Source: Rhizophagus irregularis (taxonomy: Eukaryota > Glomeromycota > Glomeromycetes > Glomerales > Glomeraceae). From it: DNA of 64,000 bases. Below the pieces are notes generated by a model. That model did no database searches, was not told where the DNA came from, and saw only the letters and a program-made list of their open reading frames with translations. Numbering within the stretch: position 1 is the stretch's first letter; each line of letters begins with the position of its first letter. The DNA is taken from contig NC_089447.1 of NCBI RefSeq assembly GCF_026210795.1, positions 560,501 through 624,500 of the forward strand, written 5' to 3'. Position numbers and translations under genes: made by a program. Shown in pieces: positions 2,445 through 51,874 of the stretch.

Positions 2445-3279
2445 TAGGGATTGGAACCGGTTAAGGTTAACCGGTTAATTAACCGGTTAAGGCGGTTAAC
2501 CGGTTAAGACCTCTCAAAAAACGGTTAACCGGTTAATTTAACCGGTTAAATTAACCGACTAATTAACCGGCTAACTTAACCGGTTAAAATACAGATCATC
2601 CTAAATTAGTAATTCCTAGCCAACTTCTAACTTTAACTTTACTAGCATTAACTTTAATTTTGCCCACCCTAATAGATTCGATGATAAACCTGCAATCTTA
2701 TATTTTAATATAATATATTGCATATGATATTTATAATTTAACATTATTTATGTTAAAATATTCTAAAGTTATAACCTTGATTTATGCAGAAATCAGCATA
2801 TGATCGGGTATAGTATTTTAAATAAGAAAAAATGCAAAAATTTGAATATTACAGTGGCCATCAGAATTGGAATGGAATTTCGGATAGAACTATAAATATA
2901 ATTAAAAAACTTTTCAACTTAGTGCTGATACCGGTGACCACTGCATGACTGGGTAGTAAGTAATTACAATATACTGTATGTAATTTTTTACTAATGTATA
3001 CATTTTAATATAAATATTTACCAGAAATTACTCTTAAATAATACTATTTAGTTAAAAACACAAAAATTTATCTTTAAATGCGCGTTAAAATACAAAAAAT
3101 AGGCCTCTAAACACACGTTAAAATATAAAATTTATATATTAACCGGTTATTAACCGGTTAGCCTCATTACAAATTAACCGGTTAATTAACCGATTAATTA
3201 ACCGACTATTAACCGGTTAGACGCTCTAATTAACCGGTTATTAACCGGTTAAGCTTTTTTTTGACGGTTCCAATCCCTA
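2445..3279. mobile_element. Non-autonomous hAT-type element full of AACCGGTTAA
   Basis: Terminal inverted repeats of 15 bp match perfectly: TAGGGATTGGAACCG at 2445-2459 and its complement at 3265-3279. The element is flanked by a perfect 8-bp target duplication, TATGTTAG (2437-2444 and 3280-3287). An 8-bp duplication with a TAGGG-type end is the hallmark of the hAT superfamily. Both subterminal regions (2455-2585 and 3137-3255) are packed with the palindrome AACCGGTTAA in both orientations, probably transposase-binding subterminal repeats. No transposase ORF is present, so it would need a transposase in trans. Confidence 0.88.
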
Positions 3280-3883: not shown

Positions 3884-4581
3884 CTAATTAAATAAGAAAA
3901 AAGTGTAATATTGACCATTATTTGCTTTATGTTGAATAATGAATTCAATTTTAGCATATGCGACACCTTCAGATTCTTCATGTAAATCTACAATATATCG
4001 GCAATATGAAGTTTTAATCGTGCTCTCCCTACTAAAATCCACGCGTCCAGAAAATTGGCTGTCTAAAAAAATAATAAAAATAAACATAAGTTTTGTTAAA
4101 ATAAAAAATTCAAAAAAGATTACTGAAATGCCCACCTAAATTACATGATTCTACGCATCCTAGTACTGGTCGCCTATAAAATATATAAAATAGAAGAAAT
4201 AACAAAACAATAGGAAGTTTTGTGGAATGTCAATAACTATTTCATTAAAAAATGATTTAAAAATCACTTTTCCTACCAAATTCCCATGCGTCCAATATTC
4301 GAAGACTACAAAAATGAATAATAAATAAATGAAACGTCAGTGAATGTTTTGTCAAAAGAAATAATAAATAATAAAAAAAAAACTTCACCCACCAAATTTT
4401 TCATGCGTCTAGATACTGTATTTCGTCTACAAAAAGAAAAAAAAGAAACTTTAATTGTTTCTTTAAAAAGTAAAAGAGAAAAATGTTAGAAAAGGGTTCT
4501 TTTTTAATTAACATAAAAAACTGCTAAAAAAAATGATTTACCCACCAAATTTTCCATGCACCCAAACATCTAAAAAAATGC
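3884..4581 (-). pseudogene. Decayed gene with a tandem exon-intron repeat
   Basis: On the minus strand, four short exon-like pieces (4581-4546, 4426-4393, 4305-4277 and 4173-4136; 36, 34, 29 and 38 nt) are each preceded by a T-rich acceptor and followed by a GTGGGT/GTAGGA donor. They share a core resembling GGACGCATGGRAATTTG. A fifth, longer exon begins at 4062 and reads SQFSGRVDF..., then an acidic and basic stretch with AYAKIEFIIQHKANNGQYY, to a stop near 3884. The repeated pieces look like duplications of the 5' part of this last exon plus its intron. Exon lengths are not multiples of three, so the repeated array cannot stay in one frame. I treat it as a broken member of a repeated family whose function I do not recognise. 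Confidence 0.5.
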
Positions 4582-24115: not shown

Positions 24116-25015
24116 AATTTTTTTGAACAAAAAAACATAAAAAACATCTTACTTTTCAGCTTGCTATCATGTAATTTCAAGTTCTAATAACTCAACATTT
24201 TAGCTTATAATTTTTTAAAATTATATTTTGCAAACTACCTTATTAAATTTTTATTTTTTGGATGTATTTGATCAGCACGAATAATTTATTGATGTTACTA
24301 TATCATTATCGAACCGTTTGAAATCACAAATACTGTATATACATAAAATTTTCTGGGGATTTAAGTCCTCCCTGTCCTCCTAGACTCATCTTAAATCTTT
24401 TTGTTTATTTTATTATAATTTTGACTTTCAACTTTTATTATTATTTTTATTTTATTTATTCAGTTTCGTAGTGCTACGAATTTAATTTTAAACCAATAGG
24501 TTTACACTGCATAATTATTACTTTGTATTATATTATAATTTCCAACTTCAGATGTGGTAATTATGCTAATTATTGTCTTTGCCGATCATTTCCAATGCGG
24601 TTTTTCAAAAAATCAAAAAAGTGGTATTCAAAACTACTTTTACCACCCTAAGTAAACTTGCAAAGTAGCCAAAAGATACATCTACTTAATGACCTTCGGA
24701 AGTTTATGTATTATATATTAAGAAAAATTTTCTCCGTCCGCGCAGCAATGACGCTTGATAATTGATAATCCCGGATGCGCAAAATTTGTCGTACATGCGA
24801 TCAACATTTTGCATTTTGTATATTATTACTATATATACCCATATCAATAAAGGCGTAAAAAAAAAAATAAAGTTATTTACATTATCTTCTCCATTTAAGT
24901 AAATGATAATGGCCCACAGTAATGATAAAGGTATAAATCATATATATAGCATGAACATTTAATACGAATTAGAATTCAATATTTTTAAACAAATTTTGCA
25001 ATATAATAAAATTAG
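24116..25015. other. Intergenic
   Basis: AT-rich; no supportable coding region. A sequence near 24590-24720 is related to the small repeat at 58430-58640. Confidence 0.4.
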
Positions 25016-25638
25016 TTACCGAAGAATTTGAAGGAAGTAGCAATAAGGAATCCAAAGGTAAATATAATATATTAAACAAGCGGATATATTGAATTTTTAT
25101 TTAATTATTAAGTAAAAACTATTTAAACTAACAATTATATTAAATAATAATTTAGCTCGTAAGTTAATAGGTTATATTATAATTGAATAATAATGAGAAT
25201 ACTTATTTTTGTTATATTTCATATTACCAAATAATTCAATTATTGATTAATAATACTATTTCAAAGTATTTGATTAGCACCTCATAAGTTGCTTTAACAT
25301 CTCCCATAATGTACTGTCTAGATAGTTTGTAAGCTATCAGTTATTTAAATCTTTAGTTTTTTTATTTTATTTCACATAATATTCAAATAACTAAATTCTT
25401 TGTTTAATCAACTATTTAATATTACAGATGGTAAGTTACAATATTTGAAAACTATATTTATTTGTTTAATATTTCGTATAACTTAACTAATTATATTTTT
25501 CATAAATGATTAGATTGTAAGTGATATATTTAATTTACAGTATATACTCTTATGTCCATATTTAACTAATTAATAATTAATAATACTACAGGGTGTAAGT
25601 TATATGTTATCTATATTTCTATTCTATATATAATTTAA

Positions 25639-28600
25639 TTCGTGATCCGCCAATAAACCATAAAAATTAATTAGACAAATTTGGTGAATTTTATGTCGAT
25701 CATATAATAAAAGATTCCAAATTGTAAAAATTGATCATGTTATGAGTACGACTTAAATGCGTAATACAAAAAAAAAACTCCTTATTATAACGTGACAAAT
25801 CCTGAATTTTTATTTTATGAATTTAATCGAAACGATTTAAAAAAAATTTTTTGACTTTGCCTTCCCGGAATGTGAGATTCCAGGTATTTTATTGATTATT
25901 AAGAATGACGAAAAACGACAATTTTTGCCTCAAACTACTTAAAAACCAGCTATAGCTTGTTCAGATAAGTCCTTTTTGGACTTTGCGGCAAATCTTGCTA
26001 TCCAATTATTAATAGAAGTTACTTCTGGAATTTCAATGTCTCGTGCTAATTCTCCGTTTTCTTGTTTTTCAACTAGTTTATCTCGCATATTATGCCCATT
26101 CATTCTTCTGTTTTTGTGAACATTACCATCCAAGAAGAACCGTTCTAATAAAGCTATAACTTGAGGTGCAATTCTTTTTCCTGAACCCTTTTTACCATAT
26201 TTTTGATTATGCTTTAGTGCCCAACCACATAGCAAAGGAAATGCACTTACGTTGCTGTTTGATTTACAAATATCAGACTTTTCTTCTTAAGCGATATTGA
26301 ATATTTTATAATTTTTTATTTTACCTGTCATATGACGTATTGGTTATATTACCTAAGATTCCCCCTTCGTTATCTATAATAGATTCTTGTTATTAGGCGC
26401 TTTTATACAATTGACTTTTTAAACTTACCAATTTTTTTGGTTTGCATTTCTTTAGCTATTTCATTTTCTAAAATTTCAATCATTCCTGCACGATTTTCTT
26501 TTTCATTTGTCATTATTCCTCGATTTTCCAATTCCTCTTGCAGTTGTTTTACCTTTAGTCGCTTTACACCAATATCTGGTAAATAAATTTGATTTATCAA
26601 TTATCTGATTTTATTTGTATAATGTAATCAAGACACTTACTTGAACTATGTGGCATTGGTATCTTCCAAGAGGATTTTGATGTCGTGTGCAAGGAAATTT
26701 GAGGTTGCGGCATGTGCATTCCAGCTTTCGCCCAATTGGATATTTGATTTGGAGTAAAGGTTTTCCATTCGCCAATGTGAGGTAAGGCTCTCGCTTGTAT
26801 ACACCCATCTAATCCTTCTTCTTCTGGCCACCTCCATTCAAAATAATTCGAAATTCCAGGAATTGTTTTTACTTTATTTTCTTTATTTTCTTTATTATTT
26901 CAAATAGTGCGTTAAATTATGCATAAAATCAATTCTCTAACAAAAAAATTATTTACCATTATCTCTATCAGGTTCTAAATGTGCTACACGAATTCCAGCA
27001 ATATCTTCAATTGCTTCTTGAATATTTTCACCATTCCTTATTTCAAATCCCAATTTAACACGCCTTTTGATTGATTGTGAGATCTATTTAATTCAACAAT
27101 TAATAAAGTAAGAAAATTTTGAATAAATTTAGAACTTTTATATACCTGTGCATGATGGGAATCGATAGAGGTTTTCGCCTCTCCTGCTTCTAGAAATACC
27201 CATTTATTTACTTTTATATCGTACCATTCTTTCCAATAACTCAATATTATCATCAATTCAGAATTGTGATAATGGGGACCATTGTCCGAAATGATGCTTA
27301 TCCATTCAGGCTTCTTATCAAGAACTTCTATTACCCCATGTAAAGATGAAGCAGTAAACCACGCGTCCTGCTTTGCATCACACGACCAGTGATCAAAAGC
27401 TTCAATACGGATTTGGCTGTTACTGGATTTTGTATAAACTAGAACAGAATGCAAAGACCACCCTTTTTTACCATAAAAATCTTGCTTTGTTTCTCTTGCA
27501 GTTTGTGGTAAGATTTTCATTTTATAATCTACTAAGAAAATTGCCCCCTTTTCATCTAATTCTAATATTGTTGCATTGAATTGAGAATTCAAGTAAACTT
27601 TTCTTGTTTGATGCGATAGGTAGTAGATTAGCTTTTCTTCATATATTTTCAAATCGTCAAGAGAATCCAAGCCAATAATTTTTTTGAGATCATTAAAGAA
27701 AGTAAATAACTCTTGACATTCATTACATATTTGAGTATGTAATTTATCACACGTTCCAAAAGCGTATAGCAAGCAATGATTAATGCAAGGATCATGTCTG
27801 GTTGTACCATTTTCTGATATTGTGAACTTTTGTTCATATGATTTTTTAAGGTAACGTTGTAAGTTCTCAGCGCGTTGAATGAAATTATTCTAAAATTATT
27901 TAGTTAATAAGTTGTTTGTTTTGTATATCAATTATTAATCTAACTTTACCTGAATTTCCATCAAACTAACTTCTTTTTGAATTAGGTTTTTCAAATATCC
28001 AAATACTTCGTAACCATAAGTATTACAAATTGCACAAAGTCCTCCCATATCTTCACGATATTGGTAGCGATTTCCTTCCAACTGACAATAAAAGGTCGTT
28101 CTTTTTAAACCATTTGGATATGTTTCCTGAAATTTCTCCCAAAGTGCTTTTTTTGTGTTTTTTAGATAAAGAACAGGTAATTGAGTTTTGGCATCTGATT
28201 TGTAAGATGACATAATAACGTTTGCTTTGTCTTCAAAAAAAATGCTAAATTGTTCCAGTTTTTCTTGCGATAATTTAGCTACTGTTCTTATAGGTTTCTC
28301 AATTTGCTTAGCGCCTGGACCATTTAATCTAGCATATTTGCGAGCATCAAAAATTGTAGTAGGAGCGACCTATATTGGAAATTGATAAGTAAAATTGTAA
28401 CAAAAAAAAAATAACTGGGTAAATCAATAAACTAACCAGTAAGTTTGTCCTAATTTCTTCATATGAAAAATCATCCGCAATTATTGATAGAATTCTTCTT
28501 TTTCCATCAATCCCTTTTTTGTTCACTTTTAAAGATTCGTTAAAACAAGACCAAAATTTATTCACAATAGGATTAGGATTGTCATCTGGGAGAGACATAT

Positions 28601-29898
28601 CAAGAAAATTATTCTCATACAAATAGATAAGAACATGCTTATCATCAATTGGATTTTCAGCTTTAGTCCAAAATTCCTTCTAAAAAATTATTTCGTTATT
28701 AATAAAATAAAAAAAAATTTTTTTCCAAAGCAATTACATAACTCACATCCGATTTATCTTTATCAAATGGTGTAATATTAGTACATCCAACGCTACGTAG
28801 TAGTGCTTTCCAAGCACGAAATTCTCTTTCTTTAAATTGATATTCTTCTGGATATATATTTTCAAGAGCGCTATATAGTTCTATTATATTGCATTTATAC
28901 TCTTTCCAGTTAAGTAAAAATTCATACCAAGGGATGCTGGCAGGGGTAAACTTATATAAATGTTGTTTATATAATTGTGTCATCATAATTTCATTGTTCC
29001 ATTCATTAATTGTACAAGAAGGCGTTCGAAGAATATTCACTAGATTTTGAGTCTTTTCATGATTAATACCAAATAAAGTTTTTCCATCCCAATTTTGTAG
29101 CACTTCAATTTTTTTCCAAACTTCTTTCCAGACTTCAACTGGATTTTTTCCGCTATATTTTAATTTAATTCGCTCATCTTGGTATAAAGCCACAGAACAA
29201 TGTCGCTGATGAATTTGCTGTACAAATAATGTTCGAATTTTTTCTTCACCAACTCTATAAATGAAAGAAGACAAATATCCCGGACCTACATATCCCAAAT
29301 TCTCCTGATCTGAAACTCCAATCATTCCAATAAATATTTGTAAATTACCGACCATTATTGTAAATGGTTGAAAAGGAATATCATCCAAAATTCGTTTGTT
29401 AATTTCCTTATCATTAAAACCACATATTAACGGACCAGAAAATCTTGTTTTTGAACTGAATAATATGTGGTATAAAAAGTTAATCGCACCAGAGGGAGTA
29501 TCGTAAACAGAACTTGTAATGCCATTTGCTTCACAAATATAACCAGGTTGAAAGGCAGCAACTGAAGTTCCTTTAACTACAGTAATTATAAAGTGAGTTT
29601 TATTAAGTGTGACAAGGGTTTTCATTTCTAAGCGTATAGGATATAATATATTGTCACGTGACTTCCACCAGAAACGTCCAAATGCTCCAAAATGTAGTTC
29701 TTCATCTAGTTTTCCTACTTTTATCAATGAAACATCATATTTTTTACACTTGTTCATTGTTATAAACGCGGTTTTTAAAGGCTAGTAATTTTAAGAAATG
29801 AGAGATTCAGACGCGAAGCAAATTTTCATATAACAATTATCACCGCCGATCATTAATAAATTTATCAAATTTTTTATGTTTCACAGGCGGATCACGAA
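25639..29898 (-). mobile_element. Potentially autonomous DDE transposon, TTAA at both ends
   Basis: The ends TTCGTGATCCGCC (25639) and GGCGGATCACGAA (to 29898) are exact complements, continuing imperfectly with CATAAAAA. TTAA lies directly outside both (25635-25638 and 29899-29902), so the target duplication is TTAA, or a TA within it. The element holds a single nine-exon minus-strand gene. It sits inside one unit of the intron-like array, and removing it and one TTAA restores a unit of normal length. TTAA targets are typical of the piggyBac and Kolobok groups, but the transposase does not look like piggyBac, so I leave the superfamily open. Confidence 0.88.
25939..29757 (-). CDS. Transposase-like protein, nine exons, 1092 residues
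   Basis: Exons, in transcript order: 29757-28747, 28679-28437, 28369-27950, 27889-27146, 27083-26957, 26871-26641, 26575-26429, 26373-26325 and 26245-25939. All junctions are GT-AG, and the 3279 nt stay open to one stop. Residues 1-337 form an unusual N-terminal part. Two stretches in it (TPSGAINFLYHI...SGPLICGF and GKNPVEVWKEVWKKI...DGKTLFGI) resemble FYRC-type motifs, a weak inference. Residues 410-445 (APTTIFDARKYARLNGPG) precede a Cys/His cluster (HDPCINHC...C...HTQICNEC) near 592-618. A DDE-like core follows: D679 (LVDYKMK), D760 (ISDNGPHYH) and E792/E795 (LEAGEAKTSIDSHHA). Residues about 930-965 (LKVKQLQEELENRGI) look like a SAP DNA-binding helix pair. The C-terminus (GWALKHNQKYGKKGSGKR) is basic. 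The exon 6 acceptor has in-frame alternatives further upstream. Confidence 0.85.
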
Positions 29899-30860
29899 TT
29901 AACCTAAATACTTCTTAATTTAAAAAATTATTTGGTAATTTCTTTTAGATAGTAAGTTATAAATTATTTATTTATATTTATTCTTATTATATGTTTATAT
30001 TTACATATAATTTAAACTAACTAAATTCATTATTTAAAAAATCATTTATTAAAATAGCTCGTAAGTTATTCTATTAATATTACATATTATATAATATTTA
30101 CATTTAAACTAATTAAATTCTTTTCTAAAAAATCATATTGTAATTTCTTTTAGATCGTAAGTAATTCTATTATATTTATATAATGTTTACATACAATTTA
30201 AACTAATTAAATTCTTTATTTAAAAATTATTTAATAATATAGCTCGTAAGTTATATATTTAATGCCATTATTACATATTTATATAATATTTACATATATT
30301 TAAACTAACTAAATTTTTTATTTAAAAAATTACTAAATAATATAGAGAGTAAGTTATTTATTTAATTCTATTATTATTACATATTTATATAATATTTAAA
30401 TATAATTTAAACTAACTAAATTCTTTATTTAAAAAATTATTTGTAATTTCTTTTAGGTGGTAAGTTATAGGTTATATAATATTAACATATCGTTTAACAT
30501 AACTAAATTCTTTATTTAAAAAATTATTTAATAATATAGATTGTAAGTTGTTATTTAATTCTATTATTGCATATTCATATAATATTTGCATATAATTTGA
30601 ACTAACTAAATTCTTTATTTAAAATGATTTCTTTTAGATGGTAAGTTATAGATTATTTATATAATATTTACATATAATTTAACCTAACTAAATTTTTTAT
30701 TTAAATATTATTTAATAATATAGGAAGTAAGTTAGTTATTTAATTCTATTGTTACATATTTATCTAATATTTGCATATAATTTAAACTAATTAAATTCTT
30801 TTATTTAAAAAATTATATTGTAATTTCTTTTAGATTGTAAGTTACAGGTTATTTTATTTA

Positions 30861-31019
30861 TCAAAATGCATAATTTTTTTATACACGAATTTAGCGTAAT
30901 TTTAATGATAATTGTTCGTAATAATTTATTTAACATTATATTTTAATTTTTATATAGAAAATTTATATTTTCTGCCAATATTTATTAAGTTTAATACCGG
31001 CATACTAAAAAAAAAAAAA
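30861..31019. other. Spacer
   Basis: AT-rich; end of the intron-like array and start of the next repeat. Confidence 0.4.
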
Positions 31020-42264: not shown

Positions 42265-43681
42265 TCATTGCTGAGGTTGTACATGACTGGAATCAACTTG
42301 TTGCTGTAGTTGAATAACTTGGCGAATATCATTTATATCTTGTTGATCATGATCGCATATCAAGTCATTAGCCTGCGTTGTCATCACATTGTTCCCAATG
42401 TTTCCATTATGCGAATCTGTATTATTGTTGAGATCAACTTGCTGTATTTGAGCAACTTGGTGAATATCACTTATATTTTGGTGATCGCATATCATGCTAT
42501 TAGCTTGCGTTGTTATCACATTGTTCCCAATATTTCCATTATGTGAATCTGTGTTCCCATAATTATTGTTGAGGTCAACTTGTTGCTGTAGTTGAGTAAC
42601 TTGGTGAATATCATTTATATCTTGGTGATCACATGTCATGCCATTAGCTTGCGTTGTCGTTATATTATTTCCAATATTTCCATTATGCGAATCTTTGTCT
42701 CTATAATTATTGTTGAGATCAACTTGTTGCCGTGTGCAAACAAAGTTTCTTTCTCTATTTATATTCTGGCTATCATTACCATAGTTTTGATTAATATCAG
42801 TTGTCAAAACAGATTGTGTTGCGAGTGTATTATTATGCACAGTATTATCATGAAATGAATTTCTATTTCCATAATAATTCAATCCCATTTCTCGTGGATT
42901 ATTGTTGAAATCAATTTGTCGTTGTGAACTATCTAGTGACATGATAAGCAACTCTATTTTGTGGCGCCGCATATGTTGAACTTGAAAAGGGATTGGTGGA
43001 TTGAAGAAGCCCATTATTTTGATTATCGGCAATCGAAACTACTTGTGTTGTCATTACATTATTCCCAATATTTCCACAAAATGAAGTTGTATTTCCATTA
43101 CAACGTAATCTTTCAGGGATTTGTTGTGGAATATTGTTGAAAACTTGTTGTGGATTAATGACATTATTAGTAAAATATCCAACTCTAGTTTGTTGAGAAA
43201 AGCCATTACCAAAATTATTTCGACCATCAGTTATTGAAGTTATCTGTGTATTATCATCGTAAGAAGAATTTAAGTTTTGAGAATTCATTTTTATTTCCTT
43301 ATTAGGGATATGATTTTGTGTAAGGAGAGAAGGAAGAATTTGTTTCAAGTCTTGTTCCAAATCCAATTTTTGATTCAAAGATAAAAATTCTTTTCGTTCC
43401 AAATTATTTATGTCAATATCTATTCCGTATATTTTTTTGTTCAATGTATTTATGATCCAAGAATGTGGAAGTACTTTACATGTGACATAATAATTTGCTG
43501 TAGAATTAATATGATTATAAAAGAATCCATGATCATAATTGCGATCATCCAAGAAAACAGAGCCTTGTAAAATAATTTGGCAAATTATATGATAAAATTT
43601 ATCATCATGTGGTGCATAATGAAAAAATTTACATTCGTTCATCCGTATGTTACTATGTTGAATCATTGGTATAGCAGCCAT
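42265..43681 (-). pseudogene. Paralogue of the Asn/Gln-rich YHIT-family gene, frameshifted
   Basis: From ATG 43681 the first 250 codons match the gene at 13029: NECKFFHYAPHDDKFYHI, YDHGFFY, PHSWIINTLNKKIYGIDID, LDLEQDLKQILPS. The frame then closes after NRVAYHVTR near 42929. The rest of the protein continues in another frame (readable to 42265), with four clear repeats built on QQVDLNNNYGNTDSHNGN, IGNNVMTTQAN and CDHQDINDIHQV. Relative to the 13-kb gene there are 4 extra nucleotides near 42945, enough to explain the shift. The repeats are better preserved and more numerous than in the other copy. It is either a recent pseudogene or a sequence error; an intron at this point is not apparent. 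Confidence 0.8.
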
Positions 43682-51333: not shown

Positions 51334-51874
51334 CCTGTAAAAAAAGTCGATCCGTTTTCATATTCCGTCTTTTTCCGCAAAAGGCTCATTTTCCGGACCT
51401 TATGTCACGGAATTTTCGAATCATCGTGAATGGATCCGTGAAAGGCACATTTTTACGGAGTTTTACAGAAATAACGGCCGTTTTCATATTCCGTCTTTTT
51501 CCGTAAAAGACTCATTTTCCGGACCTTATGTCACGGAATTTTCGAATCATCGTGAATGGATCCGTGAAAGGCTCATTTTTACGGAGTTTTACAGAAATAA
51601 CGGCCGTTTTCATATTCCGTCTTTTTCCGTAAAAGGCTCATTTTCCGGACCTTATGTCACGGAATTTTCGAATCATCGTGAATGGATCCGTGAAAGGCTC
51701 ATTTTTACGGAGTTTTACAGAAATAACGGCCGTTTTTCATATTCCGTCTTTTTCCGTAAAAGGCTCATTTTCCGGACCTTATGTCACGGAATTTTCGAAT
51801 CATCGTGAATGGATCCGTGAAAGGCTCATTTTTACGGAGTTTTACAGAAATAACGGATAAAATTTTTTATAGGG
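51334..51874. mobile_element. CCTGTAAAAAAAGTC-type element with four 126-127-bp tandem units
   Basis: The left end CCTGTAAAAAAAGTCGATCC and right end ATCCGTTAT / AAATTTTTTATAGGG pair imperfectly. The interior is four near-identical units; CCTTATGTCACGG starts at 51397, 51524, 51650 and 51777. Each unit has TTCCGTAAAAGGCTCATTTT and ATGGATCCGTGAAAGG. The open frames here exist because the period is close to a multiple of three. Related minimal copies lie at 20108-20242, with end fragments near 7700 and 39070. Confidence 0.75.

Follow-up and report, generated by a model that had tools for sequence, protein, structure and literature searches.

Many protein kinases of Rhizophagus irregularis appear, as judged from the genomic DNA, to have their N-terminal portion spelled by dozens of 3-nt exons. 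The array of intron-like units in the window, i.e., the whole stretch of 64,000 nucleotides analyzed here, very probably corresponds to the part of a kinase gene that encodes the N-terminus, with internal exons of 3 nt. These exons would most likely be joined in order, each contributing about one residue to a variable N-terminal segment.

In the window, units with GT/AG sites and 3-nt spacers are present as described by the sequence-only reading (Table 1), whose 14 junctions are of the type it reported but number 15, among them TTT with a GTAAGC donor. The 42-nt exon that it placed at 25016 was recovered together with a 22-nt start exon upstream, and two of the three frames do stay open, the third stopping at ATG/ATT. 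The array, considered then as one continuous tract from 25016 to 30860, is in fact broken by a transposon of about 4.3 kb that carries minus-strand ORFs (two of them, searched against Pfam, gave no match); when the empty site is read through, a 90-nt intron is restored. In several relatives, the first 3-nt exons are identical or similar to the first five of the window. Downstream of the window array lies neither a 1-nt exon nor a kinase, and tblastn with two family kinases found no kinase in the window. The window copy is a broken copy of a kinase-family gene, with the 5' part kept and the 3' end lost; since it is split by the transposon and devoid of its 3' end, it is probably a pseudogene. 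This broken copy, the kinase gene family, the phase-1 codons across junctions, and the 1-nt exon all lie beyond the earlier reading. Upstream of the start, TATATA occurs at -60 to -81 in five of the seven genes with parsed exon 1 and exon 2, which is weak evidence for a TATA box because the region is AT-rich.

Table 1. Parts of the window copy and of the transposon inserted in it (positions in the window)
Feature	Position	Strand	Remarks
Possible TATA box TATATATA	24830..24837	+	start codon 79 bases downstream
Exon 1	24909..24930	+	22 nt, opens with the start codon and ends in phase 1 (MAHSNDK + G)
Exon 2	25016..25057	+	42 nt, phase 1 kept
3-nt exons 1-5	25156..25594	+	AG-N3-GTAAG(T/C) junctions
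CTC	25156..25158	+	
TTT	25326..25328	+	donor GTAAGC
ATG	25428..25430	+	
ATT	25514..25516	+	fourth of 3-nt exons 1-5
GGT	25592..25594	+	fifth of 3-nt exons 1-5
Intron split by transposon	25595..29948	+	90 nt without transposon
Transposon	25635..29902	.	about 4.3 kb, interrupts one intron unit; inverted ends at 25635-25651 and 29886-29902 (13 bp inverted), TTAA on either side
Ten further 3-nt exons	29949..30836	+	first bases: ATA 29949, CTC 30058, ATC 30154, CTC 30243, AGA 30346, GTG 30457, ATT 30540, ATG 30638, GAA 30724, ATT 30834
Beginning of one further intron	30837..30862	+	array homology stops there; end point by eye

Relatives were collected by the 3-nt-exon pattern (L031-L038), by a pattern containing the 1-nt exon (L039-L055), or by exon 1 (L056-L061), and in them the array is preceded by two conserved 5' exons and followed by a protein-kinase domain. 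The start exon is 22 nt long (13 nt in one gene) and has 89 matches in the genome at up to 3 mismatches, the window copy counted, vs 2 for the reversed control. Exon 2 spans 24 to 120 nt and leads into the array in phase 1; in the 11 array genes whose boundaries are clean, its length (24, 42, 45, 75, or 120 nt) is divisible by three. The arrays hold roughly 14 to 57 introns with a median length of 94 nt, separated by 3-nt exons. After the array come a 1-nt exon (A) and the kinase exon. In 17 of 19 genes, an open frame of 67 codons in the kinase exon requires that the 1-nt A be counted in, L039-L055 being a biased sample in this respect because the fetching pattern contained the 1-nt exon. P0001, the protein annotated for the L036 gene, matches PF07714 with an E value of 4.6e-33, PF07714 or PF00069 being the domains by which a kinase was recognized.

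A gene-finder with unconstrained exon length called 498 of 529 internal exons as exactly 3 nt, giving long successions of tiny exons in multiples of three (379/396, and 119/133 in the ten loci kept out of training; L038, L001, L002, and L062-L067 were left out of the exon statistics). The reverse-complement control yielded 5 introns. Across both strands of the R. irregularis genome, TAG-N3-GTAAGTTA occurs at 4268 sites vs 175 for the reversed pattern, the excess of exactly 3-nt spacing that the sequence-only reading had proposed to look for. The corresponding counts at other spacings are 89 (230 reversed) for k = 2, 86 (214) for k = 4, and 163 (151) for k = 6, so that the excess exists at k = 3 only among the four spacings counted. 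The introns display the features of spliceosomal (U2-type) introns, with GTAAGT-like donors, GC donors in 3/498 junctions, AG acceptors, and a YTAAY preceding the acceptor in 443/498, the sites having been selected by such scores. The other check proposed earlier, namely that N3 varies more than its flanks, came out as anticipated over 498 junctions (1.84/1.53/2.00 bits at N3 vs 0-0.59 at donor positions +1 to +6 and 0-0.31 at acceptor positions -3 to -1), a contrast partly due to construction because sites were picked by donor and acceptor scores with N3 unscored. A G at exon position -1 was seen before 16 of 20 GTAAAT donors vs 59 of 298 GTAAGT donors, a preference owed largely to one locus, L036.

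In phase 1, the frame fixed by both flanks of the array, adjacent 3-nt exons of 22 arrays give 0 stops in 441 junctions vs 18.6 expected, a result reached in none of 1000 shuffles, although these junctions are not independent because the arrays are related by duplication; exons other than 3 nt (31/529) and pairs across introns longer than 135 nt were set aside. Skipped combinations produce stops at about the chance level, i.e., 18/394, 18/351, and 15/313 at lags 2-4 (16.9, 15.4, and 14.1 expected) and 14/280, 10/249, and 7/220 at lags 5-7 (13.2, 12.0, and 11.1 expected). Counted as distinct N3 pairs, stops number 0/230 at lag 1 and 11/215 at lag 2. Furthermore, N3 composition fits kinase codon positions, as derived from two genes, best in phase 1 (-1992 vs -2185 and -2230). 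Phase-2 stops also fall below the shuffles, at lag 2 (46 vs 54.6) and lag 7 (22 vs 31.4), and the shuffle is therefore not a perfect null. One gap of more than 135 nt in L036 gave an apparent stop, a 3-nt unit having been missed there.

This order-specific avoidance disfavors two alternatives raised by the sequence-only reading. If the array were a satellite derived from introns and mimicking splice sites, homogenization alone would maintain the 3-nt spacing, and the arrays are indeed tandem and partly homogenized. Such a satellite predicts neither the stop avoidance in 22 arrays, nor a frame common to the flanking exons, nor the dependence of the open kinase frame on the 1-nt exon, and we regard it as extremely unlikely. 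If, on the other hand, the whole array were one long intron removed by recursive splicing, the AG-N3-GTAAGT sites would be stepping points and the mRNA would be free of the 3-nt pieces. The sites do resemble ratchet points, though spaced by 3 nt and not 0 from acceptor to donor (with k = 2, 3, 4, and 6 counted genome-wide) and with an N3 that looks coding, and exon 2 joined to the A and the kinase exon would also be in frame. Recursive splicing explains neither the phase-1 composition of N3 nor the restriction of stop avoidance to neighboring N3, and we hold it to be very unlikely. Spacing, exon calling, and stop avoidance instead support the earlier proposal that each unit would add one codon's worth of mRNA.

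The choice of frame deserves separate attention, because at least one GenBank model (P0043) already chains 3-nt exons, in another frame. This protein contains LLGIGLLLELGILGIEL, which results when 17 consecutive 3-nt exons, as called here, are read in phase 0; the stretch of P0042 is not reproduced by its locus L066, and P0043 is therefore the sole checked case. Splicing and translation in phase 0 would generate Leu/Ile/Gly-rich segments, and no stop is found among the 498 N3; TAT and TAC are absent as well, so that this lack is not stop-specific. Read from the DNA, entry into phase 0 needs a 23-nt exon ending at GTATTT and exit a 5-nt exon ending at GTAATA, each beside a better GTAAGT site, and both composition and the adjacent-stop test favor phase 1. 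Phase 0 was reconsidered after P0043 was found and judged less likely than phase 1; we hold it to be highly improbable.

Several array-gene copies are damaged. The second kinase exon is stopped after 21 codons in L031 and after 184 in L034, L033 carries an insert, L051 has lost its array, and L060 is without array and has an exon 2 of 52 nt. These lesions and the broken window copy would suit a family that formerly worked as proposed but has since decayed into mostly dead copies, with the frame signal as a relic. However, 441 codons without a stop would be hard to maintain in the absence of selection, and the second kinase exon ORFs run over 300 codons in L032 and 325 in L036 (survey without L056, L057, and L061), leaving a dead family as a scarcely credible explanation.

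For array genes spliced with retained 3-nt exons, the spliceosome would take the introns out one by one, starting at the 5' end and recognizing them by intron definition, and at every step the 5' exon would grow by 3 nt and the next GTAAGT would be exposed; the process would resemble recursive splicing, but with 3 nt staying behind per step. Each residue codon would straddle two microexons, with its first base at the end of one and its other two at the start of the following one, a conserved Glu codon would be drawn from three exons (G, A, A), and the 1-nt exon after the array would set the kinase frame. A unit gained, lost, or skipped would change one residue with no frameshift, and tandem intron-plus-codon duplication could therefore lengthen and vary the segment preceding the conserved kinase. 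Searches for spliced retrocopies gave 2 matches vs 4 in the control with one pattern, and 38 matches, all with 3 mismatches, vs 11 with a second, none convincing. The published R. irregularis annotation is described as drawing on Illumina and Nanopore RNA (PMC10234402); P0004, which matches L035, begins inside the kinase exon, so the array is missed there.

Our literature search found no description of such one-codon-exon kinase arrays. The schistosome micro-exon genes, 35 in number, are presented as having 10-20 short exons (mostly 15 bp in length), introns of up to about 5 kb, and secreted products (PMC10526429). They have in common with the array genes many tiny exons, mostly in multiples of three, difficult automatic annotation, and fast evolution (PMC10526429), but the R. 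irregularis genes string together 3-nt exons and introns of about 94 nt ahead of a kinase, and differ from that family in their short introns and in the kinase that follows. In Arabidopsis APC11, a single gene, a single-nucleotide exon was demonstrated experimentally; as in the array genes, it is an A required for the reading frame, and sequential intron definition was likewise proposed (PMC4674806). Unlike that of APC11, the 1-nt exon of the array genes is recurrent, follows the array, and is deduced from sequence. Drosophila recursive splicing, as reported, also involves adjoining acceptor and donor sites and stepwise removal, but the ratchet point leaves nothing in the mRNA (PMC8605326), whereas the array seems to keep 3 nt per step and its introns are short. 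Fungal stwintrons are close, short introns, consecutively removed and in some cases forming sequence-similar families, but they are nested and interrupt one another (PMC9024468, PMC12403724), while array introns succeed each other with 3 nt in between. The aphid bicycle genes are similarly a divergent family known by its small-exon structure, although they are insect plant-gall effectors with different exon sizes and products (PMC9168663).

If spliced as proposed, these genes would have an extreme exon-intron architecture, with runs of one-codon exons and then a 1-nt exon, and by rough extrapolation about 10,000 one-codon exons in one genome. The spliceosome would then be able to join dozens of successive 3-nt exons in their proper order, a point of relevance to the recognition of short exons (intron definition, sequential splicing), and proteins could grow and vary by single residues through intron duplication. 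Part of the kinase repertoire of this major plant symbiont may have a misannotated N-terminus. Rather improbable is the idea that the array is an intron-built, residue-by-residue diversity cassette in which introns are homogenized and the codons between them kept different. R. irregularis would then possess many kinases each with a fast-changing recognition segment, in which the 3-nt exons would be the main target of mutation or selection; a part in host sensing or in telling self from non-self is speculation. Among 107 pairs of same-locus junctions chosen by low flank divergence (at most 1 mismatch per 40 flank bases on each side; 56/107 from L035), N3 differs in 48, with a per-site difference of 0.05/0.35/0.40 vs 0.013 in the flanks.

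Exons were called with a dynamic-programming gene-finder that used donor, acceptor and branch-site scores and allowed any exon length from 1 to 60; these scores were trained on AG-N3-donor sites, N3 being the three bases between the AG acceptor and the GTAAG(T/C) donor of adjacent introns, and the acceptor-donor distance was left unscored. A first set of 13 loci of the array-kinase gene family (L031-L037 and L056-L061), together with both parts of the window array, gave 396 internal exons and a median intron of 94 nt; exon length was 3 nt in 379, 1 nt in 9, 6 nt in 4 and 28-60 nt in the remaining four. The reverse-complement control gave just 5 introns. In a second set of ten further loci, covering 3' ends only, 119/133 exons are 3 nt long and 9 are 1 nt long. 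The base of the 1-nt exon is A, with GTAAGT following it, and the kinase exon comes next. When the A is included and a G is assumed as the base preceding it (as in TTG), the kinase exon is open over 67 tested codons in 17/19 genes, while without the A it reaches a stop after 2-18 codons in 19/19. Kinase exon 2, scored in L031, L032, L034 and L036 (L035 is cut by the locus end), is open in L032 (300 codons) and in L036 (325 codons), whose annotated protein P0001 has a kinase domain, and meets a stop after 21 codons in L031 and 184 in L034; no match to it was found in L033. The two genes failing the 67-codon test are L033, with an insert in the kinase exon after the 1-nt exon, and L051 of the second set, whose array is lost; L060, a gene start from the first set, has no array and a 52-nt exon 2 with stops. 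These three are damaged relatives. Some array introns >135 nt in L031, L056 and L061 hold short inserts with inverted repeats, as seen by eye.

Phases 0, 1 and 2 designate the candidate frames across the N3 exons. Exon 1 ends in phase 1 in 12/12 genes, and exon 2 (none found in L031), with ends placed by hand, has a length divisible by three in 12/12, of which 11 are clean, the boundary in L061 being misplaced. Each array codon therefore spans two N3 exons, taking its first base from the end of one and its other two from the start of the next. At adjacent N3 exons (lag 1), phase-1 stops are absent from the first set (0/336 vs 15.8 expected; 0/2000 shuffles), the second set (0/105 vs 4.0; 37/5000 shuffles) and both pooled (0/441 vs 18.6; 0/1000 shuffles), while phase-2 stops number 53 vs 47.3 expected and 15 vs 14.0 in the first and second sets. 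With units skipped (lags 2-7), phase-1 stops are near chance, at 18/394, 18/351, 15/313, 14/280, 10/249 and 7/220 vs shuffle expectations of 16.9, 15.4, 14.1, 13.2, 12.0 and 11.1, a null that is imperfect because phase-2 stops fall short of it at lag 2 (46 vs 54.6) and lag 7 (22 vs 31.4). With each ordered pair counted once, stops occur in 0/230 at lag 1 and 11/215 at lag 2, and loci with any phase-1 stop number 0/22 and 11/22, respectively. Furthermore, of the three phases, phase 1 gives the best fit of N3 composition to codon positions in two kinase genes (-1992 vs -2185 and -2230). Phase 0 also lacks stops (0/498 N3), a lack that is non-specific because TAT and TAC are likewise absent. Together, these frame, stop and composition results are what ordered joining and phase-1 translation would predict, and we know of no other reading that would do so.

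The sequence-only reading had described the three bases as varying between fixed splice sites, and comparison of units agrees with it. Among 107 same-locus junction pairs with no more than 1 mismatch per 40-base flank, 56 of them from L035, N3 differs in 48, with per-site differences of 0.047/0.346/0.402 vs 0.013 in the flanks, whose likeness is the selection rule. Pairs picked by intron similarity alone (intron differing by at most 2%) behave alike, N3 differing in 68/106. Among flank-selected pairs with 0 mismatches in 40+40 bases, N3 differs in just 5/26. The N3 differences suggest either selection for different codons or conversion sparing them. Relative to shuffled order, Phe (z 3.6), Trp (z 2.7) and Glu (z 2.7) are over-represented and Val is under-represented (z -3.4).

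The window array has 15 AG-N3-GTAAG(T/C) junctions, and downstream the sequence stops resembling the array near 30860, as judged by eye; tblastn with two family kinases as queries found no kinase in the window. The copy is broken. The 42-nt exon noticed earlier at 25016 is present and follows a start exon. A transposon sits between the two junction groups, and the unit it interrupts is a 90-nt intron once only one TTAA remains. Of several minus-strand ORFs inside the transposon, two were searched against Pfam and neither matched. Elsewhere in the window, tandem repeats include a unit of 126 bp (51352-51856; 4 copies at 98%), units of 144 bp (42292-42730) and short repeats of the AACCGGTT type (2455-2587 and 3172-3252).

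Features of the array copy, in window coordinates unless a contig is named
Feature	Position	Remarks
Window	G000:C19:560501-624500	genome of 146.7 Mb, 32 contigs
Start exon, 22 nt	24909-24930	upstream of array
Exon 2, 42 nt	25016-25057	upstream of array
First five junctions	25156-25594	
Transposon, ~4.3 kb	25635-29902	13-bp inverted ends (25635-25651, 29886-29902), TTAA at both edges
Remaining ten junctions	29949-30836	

Proteins in the database that are identical to kinase exons of this genome come from R. irregularis. Among database protein models, P0001 (L036 gene), P0002, P0003, P0004 (matching L035) and P0011 (L032 gene) begin at a Met that lies inside the kinase exon. The annotation of PMC10234402 drew on Illumina and Nanopore RNA; the array is nevertheless missing from P0004, which counts against a spliced array unless aligners or masking missed the 3-nt exons. 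Of 154 matches from a further protein search, 120 were listed and 41 of these read; among the 41, four have, by eye, a Leu/Ile/Gly/Met-rich stretch directly before the kinase motif: P0042 and P0043 from R. irregularis, P0019 and P0057 from R. diaphanus. In P0043, the one of the four checked against DNA, the segment LLGIGLLLELGILGIEL is the phase-0 reading of 17 successive called 3-nt exons at C11 (L064/L068), a run in which three intervening introns are long. By our reading of the DNA, the model gets into phase 0 by a 23-nt exon whose end is at GTATTT and out of it by a 5-nt exon whose end is at GTAATA, and P0043 is taken as an automatic model unable to use the 1-nt exon. Since P0043 chains the 3-nt exons, the exon chain is already partly on record. 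The rich stretches of P0019 and P0057 look like an array read in phase 0, which suggests that the architecture may exist in a second species, R. diaphanus.

While the array, its frame, the constraint on order, the 1-nt exon and the kinase are established at the level of sequence, the introns would be removed sequentially, 5' to 3', by intron definition, with 3 nt kept at each step. Sequential splicing by intron definition is considered in PMC4674806 in connection with the 1-nt APC11 exon; our proposal resembles it, but with 3 nt retained per step. As a guess, the encoded segment could give the kinase a variable surface for interactions. Searches of the open literature, most subscription papers and bioRxiv lying outside it, turned up no account of such arrays.

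The exact 3-nt spacing of AG-N3-GTAAGT, singled out by the sequence-only reading, is in excess genome-wide. Indeed, TAG-N3-GTAAGTTA occurs 4,268 times vs 175 for the reversed pattern, and spacings 2, 4 and 6 give 89 (reversed control 230), 86 (214) and 163 (151). Start-exon matches with at most 3 mismatches number 89 vs 2 in the control. As the 14-base pattern is found at 205/498 3-nt exons of the loci studied, extrapolation gives ~9,900 such exons genome-wide, a rough figure because many loci had been found by this very pattern. Some spacing-6 sites, TAG-GATCTT-GTAAGTTA and the like, recur every few hundred bases at G000:C16:3493423-3498059 and G000:C2:2216419-2217340, and are perhaps another family with 6-nt spacers.
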